Below, piece by piece: positions 4,237 through 25,359 of a stretch of DNA of 64,000 bases (positions are counted from its first letter, which is position 1; each line of letters opens with the position of its first letter). Location of the stretch: contig NZ_CAAHFB010000001.1 in the NCBI RefSeq assembly GCF_900880625.1, forward strand, positions 372,001 to 436,000, read 5' to 3'. The stretch is from Halorhabdus rudnickae (GTDB lineage Archaea > Halobacteriota > Halobacteria > Halobacteriales > Haloarculaceae). The notes beneath the pieces were generated by a model, which did no database searches, was not told the DNA's origin, and was given only the letters and a program-made list of their open reading frames with translations. The position numbers and the translations under genes were made by a program.

Positions 4237-4389
4237 ACGTCGTGCTGCTTGGGTATGGTCCTAAGTGTAGCGAAGGCTCAAAACAATCCTCTGATCTCAT
4301 GAGCGGTGGCCGGGTGGCTGATACGAAGAGCAGACAGACTAACGGTGGTCGGCGGCATTCCGCAATGAGTAGGAATACCGATGAATGGG

Positions 4390-4702
4390 AAGTCGGACGC
4401 CCGCGATTGCCCGACGTTCGGACGCGGGGAGTCCCGCGTGCCTCCTCCACCCCGCGACCCTGCGAGCGGCAGGTGTCCAGGGGTCCGCTGCTCGCTTCCG
4501 CGCCTGGCGAGTTGCCCCCGGTTAACGACACCGGCACGCCCCTGCAGGCGATTCGGCGCCGACCGCTACCCCCGCAGGACGAGGTTTCGACGTTGGCTAA
4601 CGGGGCCCACGCCCGTCTGTTCGGACGCCCCCGGGATTCGGCCCCCGCTGAAGACCATAGCGCGGGTGAAGAGCGGGGCCTAACCGCCCGGCCTAGTCCG
4701 GT
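4390..4702 (-). ncRNA. ffs: Signal recognition particle 7S RNA
   Basis: On the minus strand this GC-rich 310-nt stretch has no credible reading frame. It carries the SRP helix 8 signature: a GCCAGG arm, a GGAA tetraloop (bases 4496-4499 on the plus strand) and the GAGCAGC arm. The ends can pair (CGGAC near 4700 with GTCCG near 4396), as in archaeal SRP RNA with helix 1. Length fits haloarchaeal 7S RNA. A TATA-like ccttatggg at about 4722-4730 lies upstream. End points are accurate to perhaps 10 nt. Confidence 0.85.
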
Positions 4703-6124: not shown

Positions 6125-6199
6125 GGGCGCTTAGCTCAGCCTGGACAGAGTACTTGGCTTCGGACCAAGCTGTCGGGGGTTCAAATCCCTCAGCGCCCG
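6125..6199 (+). tRNA. tRNA-Arg (anticodon TCG)
   Basis: A 75-nt cloverleaf. Acceptor stem GGGCGCT (6125-6131) pairs with AGCGCCC (6192-6198). The anticodon stem CTTGG/CCAAG closes the loop CTTCGGA, giving anticodon TCG for CGA codons. The T-arm holds the GGTTCAAATCC loop sequence. No intron and no encoded CCA. Its 3' end is the attachment site of the integrated element that follows. Confidence 0.93.
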
Positions 6200-6200
6200 T
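6187..6200 (+). repeat. Left attachment site core (attL) inside tRNA-Arg
   Basis: Sequence ccctcagcgcccgt covers the 3' T-stem strand, the acceptor strand and the discriminator base. Integration here regenerates an intact tRNA, the usual arrangement for archaeal tRNA-targeting integrases. Confidence 0.8.
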
Positions 6201-6429
6201 CATTTTGCGTGACGGTTAACATTTGGCCGACGGCAGTACGACGTTTATAAACCACTCCCCGCTTCGCCGATGTGATTTCATCACGTTTCGTGATGGGGTC
6301 TCCGGTGTCGTGCGATTCGCCAAGATTTGAATATCACCGATTACAGATAATTATTGTGTATCGTATCATTAGTGAGTTGAATAATAACAAGGCCAAACTC
6401 CGTTGCCAGAGACGATAACTTCGAGATGC
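6200..6429. other. Non-coding start of the element with a 7-bp hairpin
   Basis: No reading frame is supported here. A TATA-like tttataa (6244-6250) precedes a perfect hairpin catcacg-ttt-cgtgatg at 6279-6295. A short RNA or an operator is possible, but nothing more can be shown. Confidence 0.35.
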
Positions 6430-11398: not shown

Positions 11399-12774
11399 CT
11401 AGAGGATCCCAATACTATAGAGGCCGAATGTGAGTACAAGAAGGGTCGATAGTAGCATCCCGGCGACCAGCGGCGGATTTTCACGTGCTTTCTCGTGCCA
11501 GGCCATCTCCTCGTACTCGTCACGGAACGTCTCCAGATTCTCTTCGTCGTAGAAGTACTTCGTCTTGAACGCGAACCGTTCCGTGACCGCACAACCCGTA
11601 CAGACAGGCGATTGTTCGAGACGTTCGGTTGTGATGTGGTCCGGACAGTTGATGCTTCCACAGTTGGAACAGTATGTGTAGTCCGTAGTCTGGCCGGTCG
11701 TCTCACAGTGGACGCACTGATGAATGCCGTCTTCGACTGTCACGCGTGACGGTCCAGCGGCGTAGTACTCGTAGGGGTACTGGTATTGTTTGATCTGTGT
11801 CGTCTGGCGAATTTCGGGCAGGTAGACCGGTGTGATCGACTGCACGGAGATATCGGATTGATTCGGCTCGCACGTCTTGTTGTAGGTGACGTTGTTGTCG
11901 CCAATGTAGGAGACGGTCGGCGTGTGACGATCCTGAAGCTGATCGACGGCCCAGTCCTTGTATTCCGTTTCGGTCTGCCCGAAGCGGTGCACGTCCATCG
12001 CATCGAAGACGTCAGCGAACTTTTCCTCGTCTAGTTCAGTCGTCTGTCGTCTGTTCTTTTCGAGAAGTCTACGAACAGATCCTTCCATAACCTCGGGCCG
12101 CCCGCGCCGAGCATGGACGACGAAGCGATCGGTCTCGTCGATGCGGTGGATTACGCCCACCGACGTTTCGAAGACGGCGTCCACGTCGGCCGTGATCAGG
12201 ACGATCGGTTGAAATCCGCTCGTGACCGAGGTGTCGGAACGTCTCTGACGGCAATGTTGTCGATGTCTTGGAAGGCCTCTCGAACGGGCGCATCGACGCC
12301 ACTGGTGGGATCGAACGGACGCAGGGTTTCGTCGCAGATGATCTCGATGCGGCCGTTGTACAGGTCGAGCCCGATCTCGTCGGCGATCTCCCGTAAATCC
12401 GTTCCGTCGATAAGCTCGATGGGATATGGATCACCGGCATCGCGCATCTCCGCGGCGTATTCACGTGCCGGTGACGTGAACGTCCCCGTGGTCACGACCA
12501 TGCCGCGCTTCGGGCCGTCGAAATCGAAGGTCGATACCGCCGAATGGAGCTTCTGTACCACTGGCCGTCCGACCGAATCAGTGTGCTTGCACTCCACGAC
12601 GATCGCGCGACGCCTCCCATCGACGACTTCCTCCATGAGGATGTCCCGCCCTTCATCGGCCGTTCGTCGAGCCTGTCGAACGTTCTCGTAACCGAGGTTG
12701 CGGAAGACGTCCTCCATTAAGTCCTCAAATTCGAAGCCGGAGAGGTCACCCAAGAGTGCCGCGTTGCTCATCAC
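11399..12774 (-). pseudogene. Mrr-type restriction endonuclease broken by a frameshift near 12212
   Basis: The first part (12774 to about 12212) has the Mrr fold: GFEFEDLMEDVFRNLGYENV, DEGRDILM, then VVECKHTDSVGRPVVQKL with the D-x(n)-ExK site, and VVTTGTFTSPAREYA. It runs out in RSRADFNRSS-stop. One base shifted, the sequence continues FQPIVLITADVDAVFETSVG and runs to 11399, with zinc-ribbon cysteines (CVHC, CSNCGSINC, CTGC) and a C-terminal membrane helix. A 1-nt indel explains the split. Intact, it would be a membrane-anchored nuclease against foreign DNA. Confidence 0.72.
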
Positions 12775-15100: not shown

Positions 15101-15751
15101 ATGCCCTTTGTTGGCCAACTCAACGGGGAGGTGGTTTTCCCTGGGTGGGTATCAGATTCGGCTGATGTCCTTTGTCCGGACTGTGGTGAAGAAATGTATG
15201 TGCGGGGTGGCCCAAATACAGATCGACTCCAGCATTTTGTGCACTATGCGAATGATCGGAAGTGTCGTGGCGAATCAGAAGAACACCTCAAATGGAAACA
15301 ACAAGTCTTCCGGGCATTTTCGAAGCTTGACCTCTCGCATCAACAGTCGCTCTTCTTTTGTTTAGAAGGAGAGGTAGATGTCTCAAATACCCCATCTGAA
15401 CGAGACATCCGTCGAGCTGATGTTCTAATCCGTCTCGGGGATGATCATGATCAGTTTGGGCGGGGGATCGTGATCGAAATCCAGCATCGAAACACCCAGA
15501 AAGATTTCCATACCGTCACCTACGATTATCTCGCTAATGGATATAGCGTTAGATGGGCCTCGCGACACGATTTCTCTACTAGCGAGTTTGATGCTGCCGA
15601 AATCATTGCTGACTCCGATTCAGATCAAATGTTCTTCCGGGAAAAAGCTGTTTCACTCCCCGAATTTGAGGCATTTCGCCAATGGGACTTTGACCAGCTT
15701 GCTGATTTACTCGATGGAACCCAACATCGTTTGTCGTGGTATCTAGAGTGA
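15101..15751 (+). CDS. CoiA-like nuclease family protein
   Basis: A 216-residue protein. The N-terminus has a CoiA-type zinc site, CPDCGEEMYVRGG, then HFVHYANDRKC and ESEEHLKWKQQ, as in competence protein CoiA. The middle carries a nuclease-like core: RADVLIRLGDD, then GIVIEIQHRN with an E-x-Q in place of E-x-K. CoiA members in bacteria act on incoming DNA; archaeal ones are common in mobile DNA. A decayed copy lies at 19155-19520, so this gene forms the left arm of a direct repeat around the QueC-like operon. Confidence 0.78.
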   Translation: MPFVGQLNGEVVFPGWVSDSADVLCPDCGEEMYVRGGPNTDRLQHFVHYANDRKCRGESEEHLKWKQQVFRAFSKLDLSHQQSLFFCLEGEVDVSNTPSERDIRRADVLIRLGDDHDQFGRGIVIEIQHRNTQKDFHTVTYDYLANGYSVRWASRHDFSTSEFDAAEIIADSDSDQMFFREKAVSLPEFEAFRQWDFDQLADLLDGTQHRLSWYLE

Positions 15752-15853
15752 AATCAGTAATTGGTAGTGGGGGATCTGGGAGGTTGGATAATTGAGACTG
15801 CCCGGAGAAGAGTCAGCCTAGATATGAAGTGACTGGCGGAATACCCTCTCACC

Positions 15854-15997: not shown

Positions 15998-16157
15998 CGA
16001 CGACTTCGTTTCTCAGCTATTCACCATCAAACCATCTCATAATCTGTGCTTGACTGGGATCGGTTTGCTGTCGTTCACCCGAATTGTGGCCGATACTGCG
16101 CCGTTAATCTCGCCGAGAGTTTTTTACAACTATCCACCGTTCATCATATAATTAACC

Positions 16158-16187
16158 TAACTAACGTGAAAAATGAGATGTTAGTTA
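16158..16187 (-). terminator. Hairpin downstream of the QueC-like operon
   Basis: A perfect 8-bp inverted repeat, taactaac (16158-16165) and gttagtta (16180-16187), with a 14-nt loop, lies 28 bp past the stop codon of the last operon gene. The loop contains aaaaa on the plus strand (T5 on the transcript strand). Likely a 3' end structure. Confidence 0.45.
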
Positions 16188-16215
16188 AATCAATTAGCGA
16201 GTAGCCTTGAGGTCT

Positions 16216-16803
16216 TTAGTAAATACGTGTGAGAACTCGCTGTCGTTTCTTGCAGCTACGGCATTCACCGCACGCTGCGTTCGATGCTGTACAAGAGTGG
16301 GTCCAGCCAAGGAGTGATTCAGGCGGTCTTGCTTCCCGTACGAACTCTTCTGTTGTTTTATCGATTGCCGGGGCTGCAACTCTGAGATTCCCCTCCTGGA
16401 ACGACAGAAGAGAATCCATCAGTTCGAAGAACTCTGCCTGCCCATCAGCGTGGCTGTGGTCGTCAGCAACTGCTCCTACCAGCAATTGGTTTGCACCTCG
16501 ATGAATGACATCCATTGCGACCAATGTGATCACGAGTTGATTTCGGTAGGGCCACCACTCTGGAGTGTCACCGAGATTTGTCTCCTGTTGGCTGGCCATT
16601 GTTCCAGCCCCAAGGTGCTTGCAATCCACTTCGATGACTTCATGTTGAAGATTCAGCTGATCAGCGATTTGTGCTGATGCTTGAATCTCTGCCTCCGCAC
16701 AGCACTGTCCGTAATCAACAGTCACTGTAAGATCTGGTCTATGAGTGTACGCTAGCGTCGCAGAGTCAAGACCACCGGATAACAATAGGACGGACTCAGT
16801 CAT
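16216..16803 (-). CDS. QueC-family PP-loop enzyme (7-cyano-7-deazaguanine synthase-like)
   Basis: A 195-residue protein from ATG at 16803. The ATP pyrophosphatase loop VLLLSGGLDSATLAY is at residues 5-19 and the zinc site SCTASNAACGECRSCKKR at the C-terminus keeps all four cysteines in QueC spacing. VDYGQCCAEAEIQASAQIA and PYRNQLVITLVA also match QueC. QueC converts 7-carboxy-7-deazaguanine to preQ0 using ATP. Its operon has no other queuosine or archaeosine gene; it overlaps the kinase-transferase gene by 8 bp. I infer a specialised paralogue, perhaps conjugating a deazaguanine to a protein as reported for QatC and Cap9. Confidence 0.85.
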   Translation of the reverse strand: MTESVLLLSGGLDSATLAYTHRPDLTVTVDYGQCCAEAEIQASAQIADQLNLQHEVIEVDCKHLGAGTMASQQETNLGDTPEWWPYRNQLVITLVAMDVIHRGANQLLVGAVADDHSHADGQAEFFELMDSLLSFQEGNLRVAAPAIDKTTEEFVREARPPESLLGWTHSCTASNAACGECRSCKKRQRVLTRIY

Positions 16804-18016
16804 ACGCCCTCCAGATTGCATTGAAGATGGCTGAAGATAGATCGCCGTATACCTCACAACCAGAGCCGAGAATCATGGTTTCACGACTTGTTTCGAGATT
16901 ATCTGCGTACCCGATAACTGGTGTTCCCTCCTTCCGGGCATATCCCAATTCAAAGTGGGTTCCGGAGTCGAGATGATCCAGTAATGCAAATACCAAGTCT
17001 GATTGCTCAATTGCATCTAAGTCTTGTTGTGCTACCTCTTCCGGACTGTCGTAGTCAGCGGCTCGACCGATATCGTGTATAGGGGAAATCACGTCAGCAC
17101 TCTCCCCCTCTAAGATATTTTTGACTTCTTCAACAACGAATCGTTCGCCTATGTCGAAGAATGGACCTGCAAGATAGATTGTCGGAGGGGTAGCGTCCGG
17201 TGAGATGAATGTCGATGAAGTACTGTTGGGCAATGATTGGATGTGTTCTCTGGAAATCGGCAGACGGCGATGTCTACAGTAGTATGCTGTTGCCTTCGAA
17301 GCGGTTAGAGCAGCGTCTACAGCAGTTTCACCATTTTCTGCCCACTCCGCAGCAAAGATAGCACTGAAGACGTCCCCACTTCCAATCCCCCAAACCGACT
17401 CCGTCTGAAAAACTGGGATTCGGGACGTCATATTTGAAGTTCTGATGATTGCCCCTTTCGCTCCCCGTTTGAGAACGACAACGTCTGCGTCAGTAGTGCC
17501 TGCCATAAGTTCTGTCAAAATAGATTCTAAGCGGTCTTCACCAGCCAACTGCGCAGCTTCGTTACGGTTCAAAACGAGTGCGAGTTCGTCGGCAGTTGAA
17601 CCATTCTCACCGAACGGAACCGGGTTTGCTGATTGGGGATCATAGACGACGCGCTCACCAGAAACAATTGCTGTCCCTTCAAGGAGCCCGAATCGCAGAA
17701 TTGCGTCTCCGCTAATTCCTGACAGTTTGCGGTTATAGTTGGTAGCTCCTGATGTGGAAATTACGGGGTTTGAGTGATTATGCAGATAGTCGAAACTAAC
17801 CGTCACCGGGATCTCAGTTATGTGGGTATCGAAGTTAAACGTCGCCGCGAATGTTTCAAGGGTCTCTTTATCAGCAGAGCTGATACATGTATGGAGTTGG
17901 TTTCGAGAAGAGATGAGACTTTCAGTAGCTGCGGCCGCTCGTAGACCTGAGCCGAAGAATGCAGTGTCAGGAGGAAACTGGCACACCTCATGGTAAGTGC
18001 CGCCCGCGATAATCAT
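16796..18016 (-). CDS. PfkB-family kinase fused to nucleoside 2-deoxyribosyltransferase
   Basis: A 406-residue fusion. Residues 1-270 are ribokinase/PfkB-like: FFGSGLRAAAA at 21-31, the NRNEAAQLAG motif near 150, VVVLKRGAKGAII and the anion-hole/catalytic VWGIGSGDVFSAIFA near 210. Residues 278-406 are a nucleoside 2-deoxyribosyltransferase: PTIYLAGPFFDIGERF, DLDAIEQSDLVFALLD, and SGTHFELGYARKEGTPV holding the catalytic Glu. The first half would phosphorylate a sugar or nucleoside; the second exchanges or hydrolyses bases on deoxynucleosides or nucleotides. It overlaps the neighbours by 4 and 8 bp, so all three genes make one unit. Confidence 0.85.
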   Translation of the reverse strand: MIIAGGTYHEVCQFPPDTAFFGSGLRAAAATESLISSRNQLHTCISSADKETLETFAATFNFDTHITEIPVTVSFDYLHNHSNPVISTSGATNYNRKLSGISGDAILRFGLLEGTAIVSGERVVYDPQSANPVPFGENGSTADELALVLNRNEAAQLAGEDRLESILTELMAGTTDADVVVLKRGAKGAIIRTSNMTSRIPVFQTESVWGIGSGDVFSAIFAAEWAENGETAVDAALTASKATAYYCRHRRLPISREHIQSLPNSTSSTFISPDATPPTIYLAGPFFDIGERFVVEEVKNILEGESADVISPIHDIGRAADYDSPEEVAQQDLDAIEQSDLVFALLDHLDSGTHFELGYARKEGTPVIGYADNLETSRETMILGSGCEVYGDLSSAIFNAIWRAYD

Positions 18017-19086
18017 TCGTCACCTGGGACGCTTTGAATATTGACTGTGCAAGACTCTGGTGTAATGCTACGAACCTCTGCCTGATATGAACGTCCTTTC
18101 TCAATACACTCGTTGAGAAGCTGAGCCCATGGGTTAGGAACATCACCAACTCTAGATCCGTCATTCATGACAACGACCCCCTCTTCGGTCGTCGTTTCAA
18201 CTGACAGGGAAAGCCCAGGGTGAAGTTGGTCCCGTACTGCAGCATTGATAGCAATCAGATCGAGATCACGGTAGAGCAGACACCTATTGGTCACTCTGAC
18301 TTCGCATTTCCCACCATCGATTTCAAGAATCCGAGCCCGATATTGTCGGCCCTGCTCGATACACTCTTTCAATGTTCCAACCCACGGTTCAGCTATAGCG
18401 CCGATGGTCCTGTCTTGTGAATCTACAACGCAGACTGCTTCGTCTTGAAGCCGTACTGAATAGATATCTCCCTCAGTTGCATCTCCCAACGGTTCTATAT
18501 TTGGCGAATGGAGAAGAGCAGTTTCTGCAATCAGGCACTCGTCTTCGTCATCCTCATCCTCATCCTCATCGTCTTCATCATTATCTTCAGCGTCTTCCTC
18601 ATCTTTCTCGTGTTCCCGGTCTTCTTCAGACTCCCCATCACGATTTTGCTGATCACCTTCTTGTTCCTCTCTTTCCGAGTCCTCATCAACAGATTCGTCT
18701 TCGGGAACGGACTCTGTCGGATCTTGTCCATCTGAGCTGTCGTCATTTTGTCCGTTATCATCCTCTGAGTCTTCGGGCTCCTTTTTTTCAGAGTCTGAAT
18801 CATCATCTCCCGGCGTATCTTCAGGTCTTTCTCCAGGTCCGGTTACTGGTGCACCACCACCATCCCCACCACCGCCTCCACCGCCTCCGCCACCCACTGG
18901 CAGTGGGCCTCCTGGAGTCGCTTCGTCGCTTGTCCCCTGTGACTCATCAGGCGGATCTTCGGTAGTTTCGTCCTCTGACTCGGGGGGCGGAACGCGACTC
19001 GGCCCGTCTTCACTAGAATCACCAGAGCTCCCTCCAGATCCGTCGTTATCAGACGGACGATCGTATCCGCCGCCTCCTCCGCCCAT
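18013..19086 (-). CDS. Glycine-rich acidic protein with two HIRAN-like repeats
   Basis: A 357-residue protein. It starts Met followed by six glycines, then YDRPSDNDGSGG. Residues 1-185 are disordered: a second run of ten glycines, many Asp/Glu/Ser, and a nearly pure acidic stretch at about 160-185. Two similar C-terminal repeats follow, at about 209-293 and 294-357, each with a V-x-D-x-[RT]-x-[VI]-G turn and a C-I-E-[QK]-G-R-x-Y-x-A helix-strand (LKECIEQGRQYRA; LNECIEKGRSYQA), reminiscent of HIRAN domains. First gene of the QueC-like operon. I infer that the glycine N-terminus is an acceptor for modification. Confidence 0.75.
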   Translation of the reverse strand: MGGGGGGYDRPSDNDGSGGSSGDSSEDGPSRVPPPESEDETTEDPPDESQGTSDEATPGGPLPVGGGGGGGGGGDGGGAPVTGPGERPEDTPGDDDSDSEKKEPEDSEDDNGQNDDSSDGQDPTESVPEDESVDEDSEREEQEGDQQNRDGESEEDREHEKDEEDAEDNDEDDEDEDEDDEDECLIAETALLHSPNIEPLGDATEGDIYSVRLQDEAVCVVDSQDRTIGAIAEPWVGTLKECIEQGRQYRARILEIDGGKCEVRVTNRCLLYRDLDLIAINAAVRDQLHPGLSLSVETTTEEGVVVMNDGSRVGDVPNPWAQLLNECIEKGRSYQAEVRSITPESCTVNIQSVPGDE

Positions 19087-19104: not shown

Positions 19105-19114
19105 TTTATATTAA
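19105..19114 (-). promoter_or_regulatory. TATA box of the QueC-like operon
   Basis: Transcript-strand TTAATATAAA is centred about 24 bp upstream of the ATG at 19086. That places transcription start at or next to the start codon, giving a leaderless mRNA as is common in haloarchaea. Confidence 0.55.
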
Positions 19115-19154: not shown

Positions 19155-19520
19155 ACATCATTTCTCCGTCTGAACAAGATATCCGTCAAGCGGATGTTCT
19201 AATCCGTTTCGGTGATAGTCATGCAGTTTAGACAGGAACCTCGATCGACATCCAGCATCAAAATACCAGAAAGATTTCCATACCGTCACCTACGATTATC
19301 TCACCAATGGATATGGCGTTAGATGGGCTTCGCGACATGATTTCTCTACTGCTGAGTTTGATGCTGCCAAAGTCATTGCTAACTCCGATTCAGACCAGAT
19401 GTTCTTCCGAGAAGAAGCCGTTACGCTCCCCGAATTTGAGAAATTTTGCCAGTGAGACTTTGACCAGTTCGCTGATTTACTCGACGGAACTCAGTATCGC
19501 TTGTCGCGGTACCTAGAGTG
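19155..19520 (+). pseudogene. Decayed partial duplicate of the CoiA-like gene
   Basis: This aligns with 15385-15751 at roughly 80-85 percent, including the flank after the stop codon to about 19565. The N-terminal zinc region is missing. The frame is interrupted by TAG after agtcatgcagt and TGA in gccagtgagac. Together with the intact gene it forms a direct repeat about 3.8 kb apart, enclosing the zinc-ribbon gene and the QueC-like operon. Confidence 0.82.
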
Positions 19521-19565
19521 AACTCTTTATTGGTGATGGGGTGATCTGAGGGGTAGATAATGGAG

Positions 19566-23883: not shown

Positions 23884-24897
23884 CTACAGGTCGTCCAAGT
23901 AATCCCTCCGCTGTTCCATCTTCTCCCGTTCCGTTCGGCGATCGTAGTGCTGTTCGATCACCCGTTGGCTGACGTTTGCTCGGTCATTAACGACTTTGTC
24001 CGGCATATCGCTATTCAGACTGTGGGTGATGCTTCCACGACGAATTGCATGTGGACTCACGCTTGACGGACAATTGTAAGCGGTGTCACGTTCCAATGCC
24101 GTACATTCCCCCAGTTCGCGGTCATGTGGACACTCAGTACTGTAGACACAGGGGCGTGTCCACCGGTAAACATAAGCACGGAGTGTCGTCTTGTTCGTTC
24201 GGCCTTCTCGCGAGGCCAGCATTGGCTTTCGACCGTGCTCGTCAGTCACTGCTGGTCGCTTCGTATCCAACCAGTCGTCCAACAGTTCACACACCTGCTC
24301 AGAAAGAGCGACCATCCGAGCTCCCTTTCCTTGGTTCTTGATCGGTGTGCCCGTCTCCGGACGGTGACGGACCTTGATATACTGTTCGTCTGGGTTGTAG
24401 TCCTCAACATCAAGGGCGTGAACACCACCGACTCGCATCATCGTGTGCCACATCAATGCGATTGCAACATGCTGGATACTCGCATACTCGTACTTCTCCA
24501 GATGAGCGAGCACTTTCGTGGCGGCGTCACTGTCGAGCATCACATCCCGAGAGTTCTCGTCGGGCGTGATCGACGGAGACAATACTTTCTCGCTCAGGTC
24601 CTGTTCTACACCGTCGATTGATTCCAGCCAACGGATGAACACACGCAATGTGTCCATCTGGGTCTTCTCGCTGACCTTGTTCAGGTCACCGTCTTCGCGT
24701 CGCCAGAGTCGGTACCGATGCAATTGACGACCAGTGAGCGTATTGAGGTTCTCAATACCCTCAATCTCATCACACCACCGGACAAAGTGACCAAGACGAT
24801 ACTCATGGCCCTTGAGGGAGGCTTCCGCCAGTTCGTTTGCCTTGTCTGCGAGGTACAGTTCTAGCGCGGTTTTGGGGTCGATTGGTTCGAGACTCAT
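23884..24897 (-). CDS. Tyrosine recombinase / integrase
   Basis: A 337-residue protein from ATG at 24897. An N-terminal SAM-like DNA-binding domain (ELAEASLKGHEYRLGHFVRW) precedes a catalytic domain with Arg in HTMMRVGGVHALD, a Lys-bearing turn near TPIKNQGKGARMV, HAIRRGS, and the nucleophile Tyr in EQHYDRR. All tyrosine-recombinase residues are visible. A longer upstream start would read through the att-proximal region and is unlikely. The att core is 113 bp upstream, so this enzyme probably integrated the element at tRNA-Arg. Confidence 0.92.
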   Translation of the reverse strand: MSLEPIDPKTALELYLADKANELAEASLKGHEYRLGHFVRWCDEIEGIENLNTLTGRQLHRYRLWRREDGDLNKVSEKTQMDTLRVFIRWLESIDGVEQDLSEKVLSPSITPDENSRDVMLDSDAATKVLAHLEKYEYASIQHVAIALMWHTMMRVGGVHALDVEDYNPDEQYIKVRHRPETGTPIKNQGKGARMVALSEQVCELLDDWLDTKRPAVTDEHGRKPMLASREGRTNKTTLRAYVYRWTRPCVYSTECPHDRELGECTALERDTAYNCPSSVSPHAIRRGSITHSLNSDMPDKVVNDRANVSQRVIEQHYDRRTEREKMEQRRDYLDDL

Positions 24898-24989
24898 GTC
24901 TTGTCTACCATTGGTCGAACCGCACGAGTCCCGTGACCACCCATCACGAACCGACCCGCACTGCGCTGAACCGGCCAAAAGGAGGGGTT

Positions 24990-25004: not shown

Positions 25005-25009
25005 CAAGG

Positions 25010-25023
25010 CCCTCAGCGCCCGT
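25010..25023 (+). repeat. Right attachment core (attR), exact copy
   Basis: ccctcagcgcccgt, identical to 6187-6200 in tRNA-Arg and adjacent to the integrase. It marks the likely right end of the 18.8-kb element. Confidence 0.75.
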
Positions 25024-25114
25024 GAATTCTGCGCGAACGACAGTGAGCACTGATGAGCGCCGGCTGAGGGATTTGCGGTAGACCGCGAGGGAGCGAAGCG
25101 ACCGAAGAGGGCGT

Positions 25115-25138
25115 GGTTCAACTCCCTCAGCGCTCGTC
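25115..25138 (+). repeat. tRNA-Arg 3' end copy, 22 of 24 bases
   Basis: ggttcaactccctcagcgctcgtc matches tRNA bases 6178-6201 with two changes, extending into the T-loop. A longer tRNA fragment than the exact cores, consistent with an older or independent integration. Confidence 0.65.
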
Positions 25139-25359
25139 TTTTCGCGGTCATAATCGCTTGACAGCGACATGTCAACCTCCGACGAACGCAATGCCGCTGT
25201 TTTCGTTCGATGGGCGAATGGGTAGTAGCTCACGCGAGCAGACGTGTACAGCCACGCTGGTCCCATGCTTGAACACTGGGGCAGAATAATGGGGGGGCAC
25301 CCTCGATGGAAAACGATCGCGGCCCAAACTATATATAGTCTGTCAGAAGGGTGGTGAGT

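Follow-up and report, generated by a model that had tools for sequence, protein, structure and literature searches.

A candidate QueC-based nucleobase-protein conjugation module in Halorhabdus rudnickae and in diverse bacteria

Introduction

What is the function of an operon that joins a QueC-like enzyme to a nucleoside-handling fusion protein and to a protein with a run of glycines directly after its initiator methionine? We have addressed this question for three overlapping genes, designated A, B and C, in a 64,000-nucleotide stretch of the Halorhabdus rudnickae genome (the window, in what follows). An earlier examination of the letters of this DNA, here called the sequence-only reading, had proposed that A is the acceptor of a deazaguanine base attached by C. 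We report that the trio is a widespread mobile module, present in Halobacteria and in at least nine bacterial phyla, and we argue with moderate confidence that it serves, through its QueC-like enzyme, to conjugate a nucleobase to a protein, with antiviral defence as its most likely purpose.

Nucleobase-protein conjugation was first reported in 2025 for one type of CBASS (cyclic oligonucleotide-based antiphage signalling system), and was inferred for Qat (PMC11996544; PMC13279940). In type IV CBASS, NDG is attached to Gly2 in the MGGS motif of the CD-NTase; in Qat, the MGTS motif of QatB is essential, and a G2D substitution abolishes defence (PMC13279940; PMC11996544). The B-C pair was published in 2026 as 'Cluster 4' of the PF06508 QueC proteins, and was read there as purine salvage (PMC13329287).

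Organization and distribution of the operon

The features of the operon are as follows.

18013-19086, minus strand: gene A, 357 aa, with an MGGGGGG start (MGGGGGGYDRPS...), a Gly-rich, very acidic tail and two C-terminal HIRAN-like domains
19066-19086, minus strand: codons 1-7 of A (MGGGGGG), the conserved N-terminal motif; family form M-[S/G/T/A/C]-G-...
18286-18540, minus strand: HIRAN-like domain 1 of A, residues ~183-267, from the family hidden Markov model (HMM) and from Foldseek comparison of a family model with HLTF HIRAN
18031-18285, minus strand: HIRAN-like domain 2 of A, residues ~268-352, an internal repeat in the alignment with approximate boundaries
16796-18016, minus strand: gene B, 406 aa, a fusion of a PfkB-family kinase and a nucleoside 2-deoxyribosyltransferase (NDT), from Pfam, alignment and fold matches
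16216-16803, minus strand: gene C, 195 aa, QueC-like (PF06508), of a clade distinct from canonical QueC
16762-16779, minus strand: PP-loop SGGLDS of C, from the family alignment
16252-16293, minus strand: zinc cysteine motif of C (C171, C178, C181, C184), from the family alignment
19105-19114, minus strand: TATA-like box directly upstream of A, found by eye only
16150-16196, minus strand: hairpin 3' of C, a possible but weak terminator (folding z = -1.76)

As the sequence-only reading had described, the three open reading frames (ORFs) lie on the minus strand with overlaps of 4 bp between A and B (18013-18016) and 8 bp between B and C (16796-16803), and every motif it had named in B and C (SGGLDS, the four zinc cysteines, GSGD and GTHFELG) was found. 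For C we took the ATG giving 195 aa, a choice supported by the family alignment. The 3' hairpin that had been noted exists, although it is unremarkable, with equally good folding in 11 of 200 shuffled sequences, and the TATA-like promoter is a visual match only.

We scanned 84,980 species genomes with the B alignment and obtained 178 relatives, of which the best 80 were retained; together with the window and 11 plasmids, these make up the set of 92 loci used throughout. Searches of plasmids by tblastn with B and C found the same pair in haloarchaea, Proteobacteria and Cyanobacteria. HMM matches place A directly upstream of B in 91 of the 92 loci, and gene order does so in L071, the other locus; C follows A-B in 88. 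The loci come from Halobacteria, Pseudomonadota, Cyanobacteriota/Melainabacteria, Bacteroidota, Verrucomicrobiota, Lentisphaerota, Thermodesulfobacteriota, Ignavibacteriota, Acidobacteriota and Myxococcota. Because order and content are conserved across these loci, a chance origin of the trio is excluded; the sequence-only reading had made its proposal depend on just such conservation elsewhere.

The distribution within groups is patchy. A close relative of C (60-100% identity) was present in 6 of 392 genomes of the host's order, the host counted, and the remaining matches in that order, at about 30% identity, were canonical QueC wherever checked. Among complete E. coli genomes, 10 of 5426 carry a chromosomal trio. 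The two E. coli loci that we examined contain A, B and C followed by genes D and E (nitroreductase-like and OGG-like, respectively), a methylase and a dGTPase, and stand beside integrase genes; one of them adjoins UvrD-helicase and ATP-dependent nuclease genes.

The N-terminus and fold of A

We compared the extreme N-terminus of A among 85 non-redundant proteins. Residue 2 is small in 84 of the 85 and residue 3 is Gly in 77; entropy is 0.7-2.4 bits at residues 2-7, with its minimum at residue 3, and rises to about 3.3-3.6 bits by residues 12-18. The extreme N-terminus is thus the conserved part of a disordered tail that otherwise drifts, and it contrasts with the variable C-terminus of the protein. 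We observed the motif M-[SGTCA]-[GS] at 61 of 66 A starts picked by Shine-Dalgarno score alone, blind to the motif, as compared with 26 of 369 (7%) when the same rule was applied to other long ORFs of the same loci. Under a nearest-ATG rule the motif was present in 78/85, and 8 further loci on viral contigs had it in 8/8. The Gly start emphasized in the sequence-only reading therefore stands as a conserved, flexible Gly/Ser end, and not as glycine at residue 2, which in most bacteria is Ser. In this respect A resembles known and proposed acceptors, as that reading had suggested: like the type IV CBASS CD-NTase and QatB, it has a flexible Gly/Ser N-terminus from which Met can be cleaved. A disordered, Met-cleavable Gly/Ser motif encoded beside a QueC-like gene is what marks the partner in QueC-based N-terminal conjugation, and A has it.

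No sequence family matched A above the cut-off, nor was there a Pfam HIRAN sequence match. AlphaFold modelling of 55 A sequences gave a confident barrel and a low-confidence Gly/Ser-rich tail; in the model of one family member the mean pLDDT (predicted local distance difference test score) was 84, and that of the first ten residues about 50. Foldseek comparison of the model with the PDB returned HLTF HIRAN domains (probability 1.00, TM-score ~0.6, E ~1e-2), and comparison with viral libraries returned several viral HIRAN entries, the best E-values being ~1e-3 to 1e-2. These models support a HIRAN fold for A and back the HIRAN-like repeats proposed earlier. The HIRAN fold of HLTF binds DNA 3' ends. 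PADLOC matches of A to PDC-M03B were weak, were absent in the other family members tested, and were not used.

The QueC-like protein and the kinase-transferase fusion

C matches PF06508 (E 7.4e-26). In an alignment of 88 family members we observed SGGxDS in all 87 that have letters at the site and the four zinc cysteines in 88/88, with Y31, Q33 (86/87), E39, P85, R87, N88 and D120 essentially invariant. D120, which is present in 88/88, aligns with the Asp of Cap9 that reads the guanine Watson-Crick edge. The catalytic and guanine-recognition residues of QueC, among them the PP-loop and zinc cysteines named in the sequence-only reading, are thus kept throughout the family. C is nevertheless not a canonical QueC: it has H-x-D-G in place of YPDC, its family forms one clade apart from canonical QueC in our tree (support 99/98), and neither queD nor queE is among the recurrent neighbours of the 92 loci.

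B matches PF00294 (E 6.9e-10) and PF05014 (E 1.2e-16). The kinase residue D215 and the NDT residues D332, D350 and E356 are invariant in a 46-sequence alignment. In the model of B (pLDDT 92), the kinase part is nearest in fold to pseudouridine kinase and ribokinases, and on this account the substrate of B is likely to be nucleoside-like.

Comparison with known systems

The trio resembles type IV CBASS (Cap9, Cap10 and CD-NTase) in that a QueC-family enzyme is encoded beside a partner with a flexible M-G-G-S/G N-terminus, as in our positive example, locus L132, the CD-NTase of which begins MGGSGGG. C also has the PP-loop, zinc cysteines, RN residues and guanine-edge Asp of Cap9. It differs from Cap9 in belonging to a clade of its own and in having His and Gly for the Tyr and Cys of the substrate motif, and the trio differs from type IV CBASS in having a HIRAN-like partner, and an NDT-kinase fusion instead of TGT. 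There is no CD-NTase in the trio, the conserved genes of the loci being A and B, C, and two bacterial genes D and E (below) only, and no Cap10 TGT-like protein among the recurrent neighbours of the 92 loci. Qat likewise combines a QueC-family protein with a partner that has a long disordered tail and a conserved N-terminal Gly motif (PMC13279940); QatC, however, is about 400 aa, with extensions and with Thr for the base-reading residues, while C is 195 aa and keeps the Asp. QatA, QatB and QatD were all missing from the same recurrent neighbours. We therefore agree with the sequence-only reading that the trio is neither Qat nor CBASS.

Two candidate links to Cap9 were dropped. A 'GSG' motif shared with the sequence of the Cap9 structure is missing from the Cap9 of L132, and a PADLOC match of C to the Cap9 model was set aside, because canonical QueC scores higher on the same model.

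The window genes do belong to 'Cluster 4' (PMC13329287), with which they share the B-C pair in one operon, SGGxDS, the YGQ..E motif and the C-x6-CxxCxxC-x-K pattern; the paper writes YGQ(x)6E, where the C family here has (x)5. Gene A, the nitroreductase and OGG partners and a PurA-like variant (below) are not mentioned there. The claim that the system is undescribed accordingly fails for B-C and holds, with respect to that paper, for A. In the literature that we found on the trio, from which only PMC13329287 surfaced, A is undescribed; most subscription papers were outside our reach, and an earlier description is possible.

Related operons and variants

Several variants of the operon have a bearing on its mechanism. 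In Bacteroidota loci L076 (9170-10369), L099 (9166-10371) and L110 (9179-10363), C is replaced by a PF00709 adenylosuccinate-synthetase-like (PurA-like) protein (E 1e-40 to 1e-45), which keeps the GDEGKG and AGH motifs and has NEYQGEFRTN at the site of the PurA TTGR loop. In PurA this loop binds aspartate. We considered whether loci that lack QueC always lose the Gly start of A; this fits L076 and L099 and fails for L110. In some Alphaproteobacteria A-B is duplicated, and an FRG-domain gene is added: L073, L111, L114, L117 and L126 have second copies of A and of a B-like gene (with a degenerate NDT), then the FRG-domain gene (PADLOC PDC-S15). The divergent NDT-QueC locus L134 has no annotated A; at the place expected for A lies an unannotated ORF (4281-4676) with a likely start of MGSTGSG and a motif like that of A, and its overlap with B is 4 bp.

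A related operon occurs in Rhizobiaceae (L133, 4655-10472; L135, 7001-12824; and L050), and resembles the window operon through B and QueC only. It encodes B, whose NDT part appears to have degenerated, together with QueC, OGG and a small ThsB-like TIR protein that begins MGGGGGG or MGGGSSG. L133 and L135 add a DUF4231 protein and a TIR-TGT fusion (PADLOC TGT, E 1.5e-20 in L133), and it is only here, as a TIR fusion, that a TGT of Cap10 type occurs. The operon is like Thoeris in its ThsB-like TIR, which is the Gly-start protein; it has no annotated ThsA and contains instead OGG, QueC and (L133, L135) the TIR-TGT fusion. It has the look of a TIR immune system, so far undescribed, that includes base-conjugation parts of CBASS type. 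Common to all of the variants is an enzyme able to link an amine with an acid or nucleotide of purine type, encoded beside a protein with a special N-terminus.

Regular and optional neighbours

De novo clustering of neighbouring genes identified two that are regular in bacteria: D, which resembles nitroreductases and occurs at 70 loci, and E, which resembles OGG and occurs at 76. Haloarchaeal loci consist of the trio alone, without D or E; the fuller bacterial system has both of these genes in addition to the three of the sequence-only reading. Optional neighbours among the 92 loci were a Dam-type methylase (29), a small helix-turn-helix-like gene (19), a dGTPase (18) and the VUT queuosine-precursor transporter, which adjoins 5 loci and which we count in favour of base conjugation. 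In a PADLOC comparison of 115 flanking proteins, matches of 1e-15 or better included type II methylases (10), dGTPase (5), Gabija GajB (3) and a helicase associated with DRT, defence-associated reverse transcriptases (3). A full CBASS oligonucleotide cyclase (E 5.8e-139) stands beside the trio of Halobium salinum (L051, 10023-11138). These neighbours, together with the island locations, bear out the earlier placement of the trio near defence-type genes on mobile elements.

Proposed mechanism and alternatives

From the observed gene content and order, conserved residues and motifs, and folds, we infer a reaction, an order of its steps, a role for B and an immune function. Met would be removed from A, and the flexible N-terminus (Gly6 here, Ser-Gly-Ser-Gly in most bacteria) would enter the active site of C. 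C would use ATP to activate a guanine-like carboxylate, either 7-carboxy-7-deazaguanine (CDG) or one related to it, and join the activated base to the N-terminal amine of A, in the way that Cap9 modifies the CD-NTase of type IV CBASS. B would then bind the base, or add a sugar and a 5'-phosphate to it, and the HIRAN-like domains of A would couple the modified protein to DNA or to replication intermediates; in bacteria, the OGG-like and nitroreductase-like enzymes would read the base or change it further. In our view the trio is best read as a third example of immune systems in which a QueC-family enzyme conjugates a nucleobase to a protein; it would differ from the other two in its partner and in its additional enzymes for sugar and phosphate. 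The central proposal of the sequence-only reading, that C attaches a base to A, appears well supported by the comparative evidence, though it is not proven.

A further-reaching version, which we offer as speculation and consider unlikely as a whole, is that the N-terminus of the protein is built into a full nucleotide: C or the PurA-like ligase would add a purine-type base, the NDT of B a deoxyribose and the kinase a 5'-phosphate, and the nucleotide of the HIRAN protein would be read by OGG-like or other base-binding enzymes or be coupled to DNA ends. On the same supposition, ligation of purines to proteins would be general in prokaryotic immunity, with interchangeable ligases and partners (CD-NTase, QatB, TIR, HIRAN).

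The alternative that deserves most attention, doubtful as we think it, has C making a free 7-deazaguanine amide or nitrile, to which the NDT of B adds deoxyribose and the kinase a 5'-monophosphate; the analogue would enter DNA or block phage polymerases, A would be a DNA-end-binding helper, and control over the base or the dGTP pool would fall to the OGG-like and dGTPase genes. An NDT and a nucleoside-type kinase do form a natural salvage route to a deoxynucleoside monophosphate (dNMP), the HIRAN-like domain could bind DNA ends, and genes for dGTPase, OGG-like protein and Dam-type methylase are nearby (18, 76 and 29 of the 92 loci). The replacement of C by a PurA-like protein also recalls phage PurZ/dATPase logic. 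Yet the dGTPase and methylase are optional, the loci share no polymerase, DNA transglycosylase or dNMP kinase, and this scheme leaves unexplained both why the extreme N-terminus of A is the best conserved segment of its tail and why partners in other QueC operons have the same N-terminal end.

Salvage of purines or 7-deazapurines unconnected with immunity, the reading given for 'Cluster 4' (PMC13329287), seems to us improbable. That published reading of the B-C neighbourhood is consistent with the VUT transporter in 5 loci and with a host seemingly devoid of de novo QueC and QueE; the Gly-start HIRAN protein, however, would be superfluous for salvage, and neither the patchy, plasmid- and island-borne distribution (6/392 genomes of the host's order; 10/5426 E. 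coli) nor the Gabija helicase, CBASS cyclase, TIR and FRG genes among the neighbours favours it. Least probable is that C acts instead on a C-terminus, that of A or of some other peptide, yielding an amide or nitrile in the manner of ribosomally synthesized and post-translationally modified peptides; the N-terminal motif would then be no more than a leader or a tail that aids solubility. Synthetases that use ATP to form a nitrile at the C-terminus of a peptide are known and have been compared with QueC chemistry (PMC13060819), and a nitroreductase-family gene is found in 70 loci; but it is the N-terminus of A that is conserved and the C-terminus that varies, the guanine-edge Asp of C is kept in 88/88, and the known QueC-like immune enzymes act at the N-terminus.

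Several observations weigh against the conjugation reading. The base-stacking Tyr is His in 85/88 members of the C family and the Cys of YPDC is Gly in 87/88; with these changes in the substrate motif, C may act on a base other than CDG or one bound in another geometry. In the tree, only long branches connect Cap9 with C, so that the nearness of the two is uncertain, and the PADLOC Cap9 model gives canonical QueC 75-110 bits as compared with 49-65 bits for C. About three quarters of the A proteins have Ser at residue 2, and in the PurA-type loci A lacks the Gly start in 2/3 (L076 and L099; L110 keeps it). The defence counts among flanking proteins stand without a matched control and are for this reason supportive only. 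Finally, the host genome (3.36 Mb in 6 contigs, with 99.99% completeness) has no canonical QueC, and a haloarchaeal QueE query had no match in a search that lacked a positive control; an archaeosine TGT and a VUT transporter are present, and the supply of CDG is therefore unproven.

C is the one full-length QueC-length protein in the host. The sequence-only reading had regarded a sole QueC grouped in relatives with archaeosine genes as evidence against its proposal; the former part is what we found, a QatC homologue aside, and the latter is not, since the relatives do not stand with archaeosine genes. The sole PTPS (QueD-type) match in the host has neither queE nor queC alongside. The QatC homologue (PADLOC QatC, E 1.4e-39, with a PF06508 match) is on another contig, C2:115637-117106 (L277, 138-1607; L278), and adjoins two pairs of nucleotidyltransferase and membrane-protein genes resembling CBASS.

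If the conjugation reading is correct, a gene pair published as 'purine salvage' is the third example of nucleobase-protein conjugation, in at least 10 phyla. The shared part would be a QueC-like ligase with a flexible Gly/Ser tail, and the partner, the base-handling enzyme and even the ligase would be swappable, so that acceptors could be predicted in uncharacterized operons. If the trio is something categorically new, this could lie in the sugar-phosphate steps and in the exchange of QueC for a PurA-like ligase. As the full operon exists in E. coli, the function of the Cluster 4 QueC proteins is directly testable.

The integrated element

The region containing the trio looks like an integrated element, as the sequence-only reading had held, and one targeted to tRNA-Arg, with the following features.

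6125-6199, plus strand: tRNA-Arg, the likely integration target
6182-6205, plus strand: 24-bp repeat of the tRNA-Arg 3' end, one end of the element
25119-25142, plus strand: 88% copy of the 24-bp repeat, the other end of the element; an 83% copy is also present at 25005-25028
23884-24978, minus strand: tyrosine-recombinase-like integrase ORF, assigned by eye and by its position next to the repeat copies

Within the window, direct repeats about 85% identical flank the trio at 15392-15784 and 19166-19554; they correspond to an intact ORF (15101-15751) and a truncated copy of it, which suggests an insertion or duplication. The element also carries a homologue of Mrr-like type IV restriction endonucleases at 12196-12774 on the minus strand (PADLOC PDC-S02 / mREase_IV).

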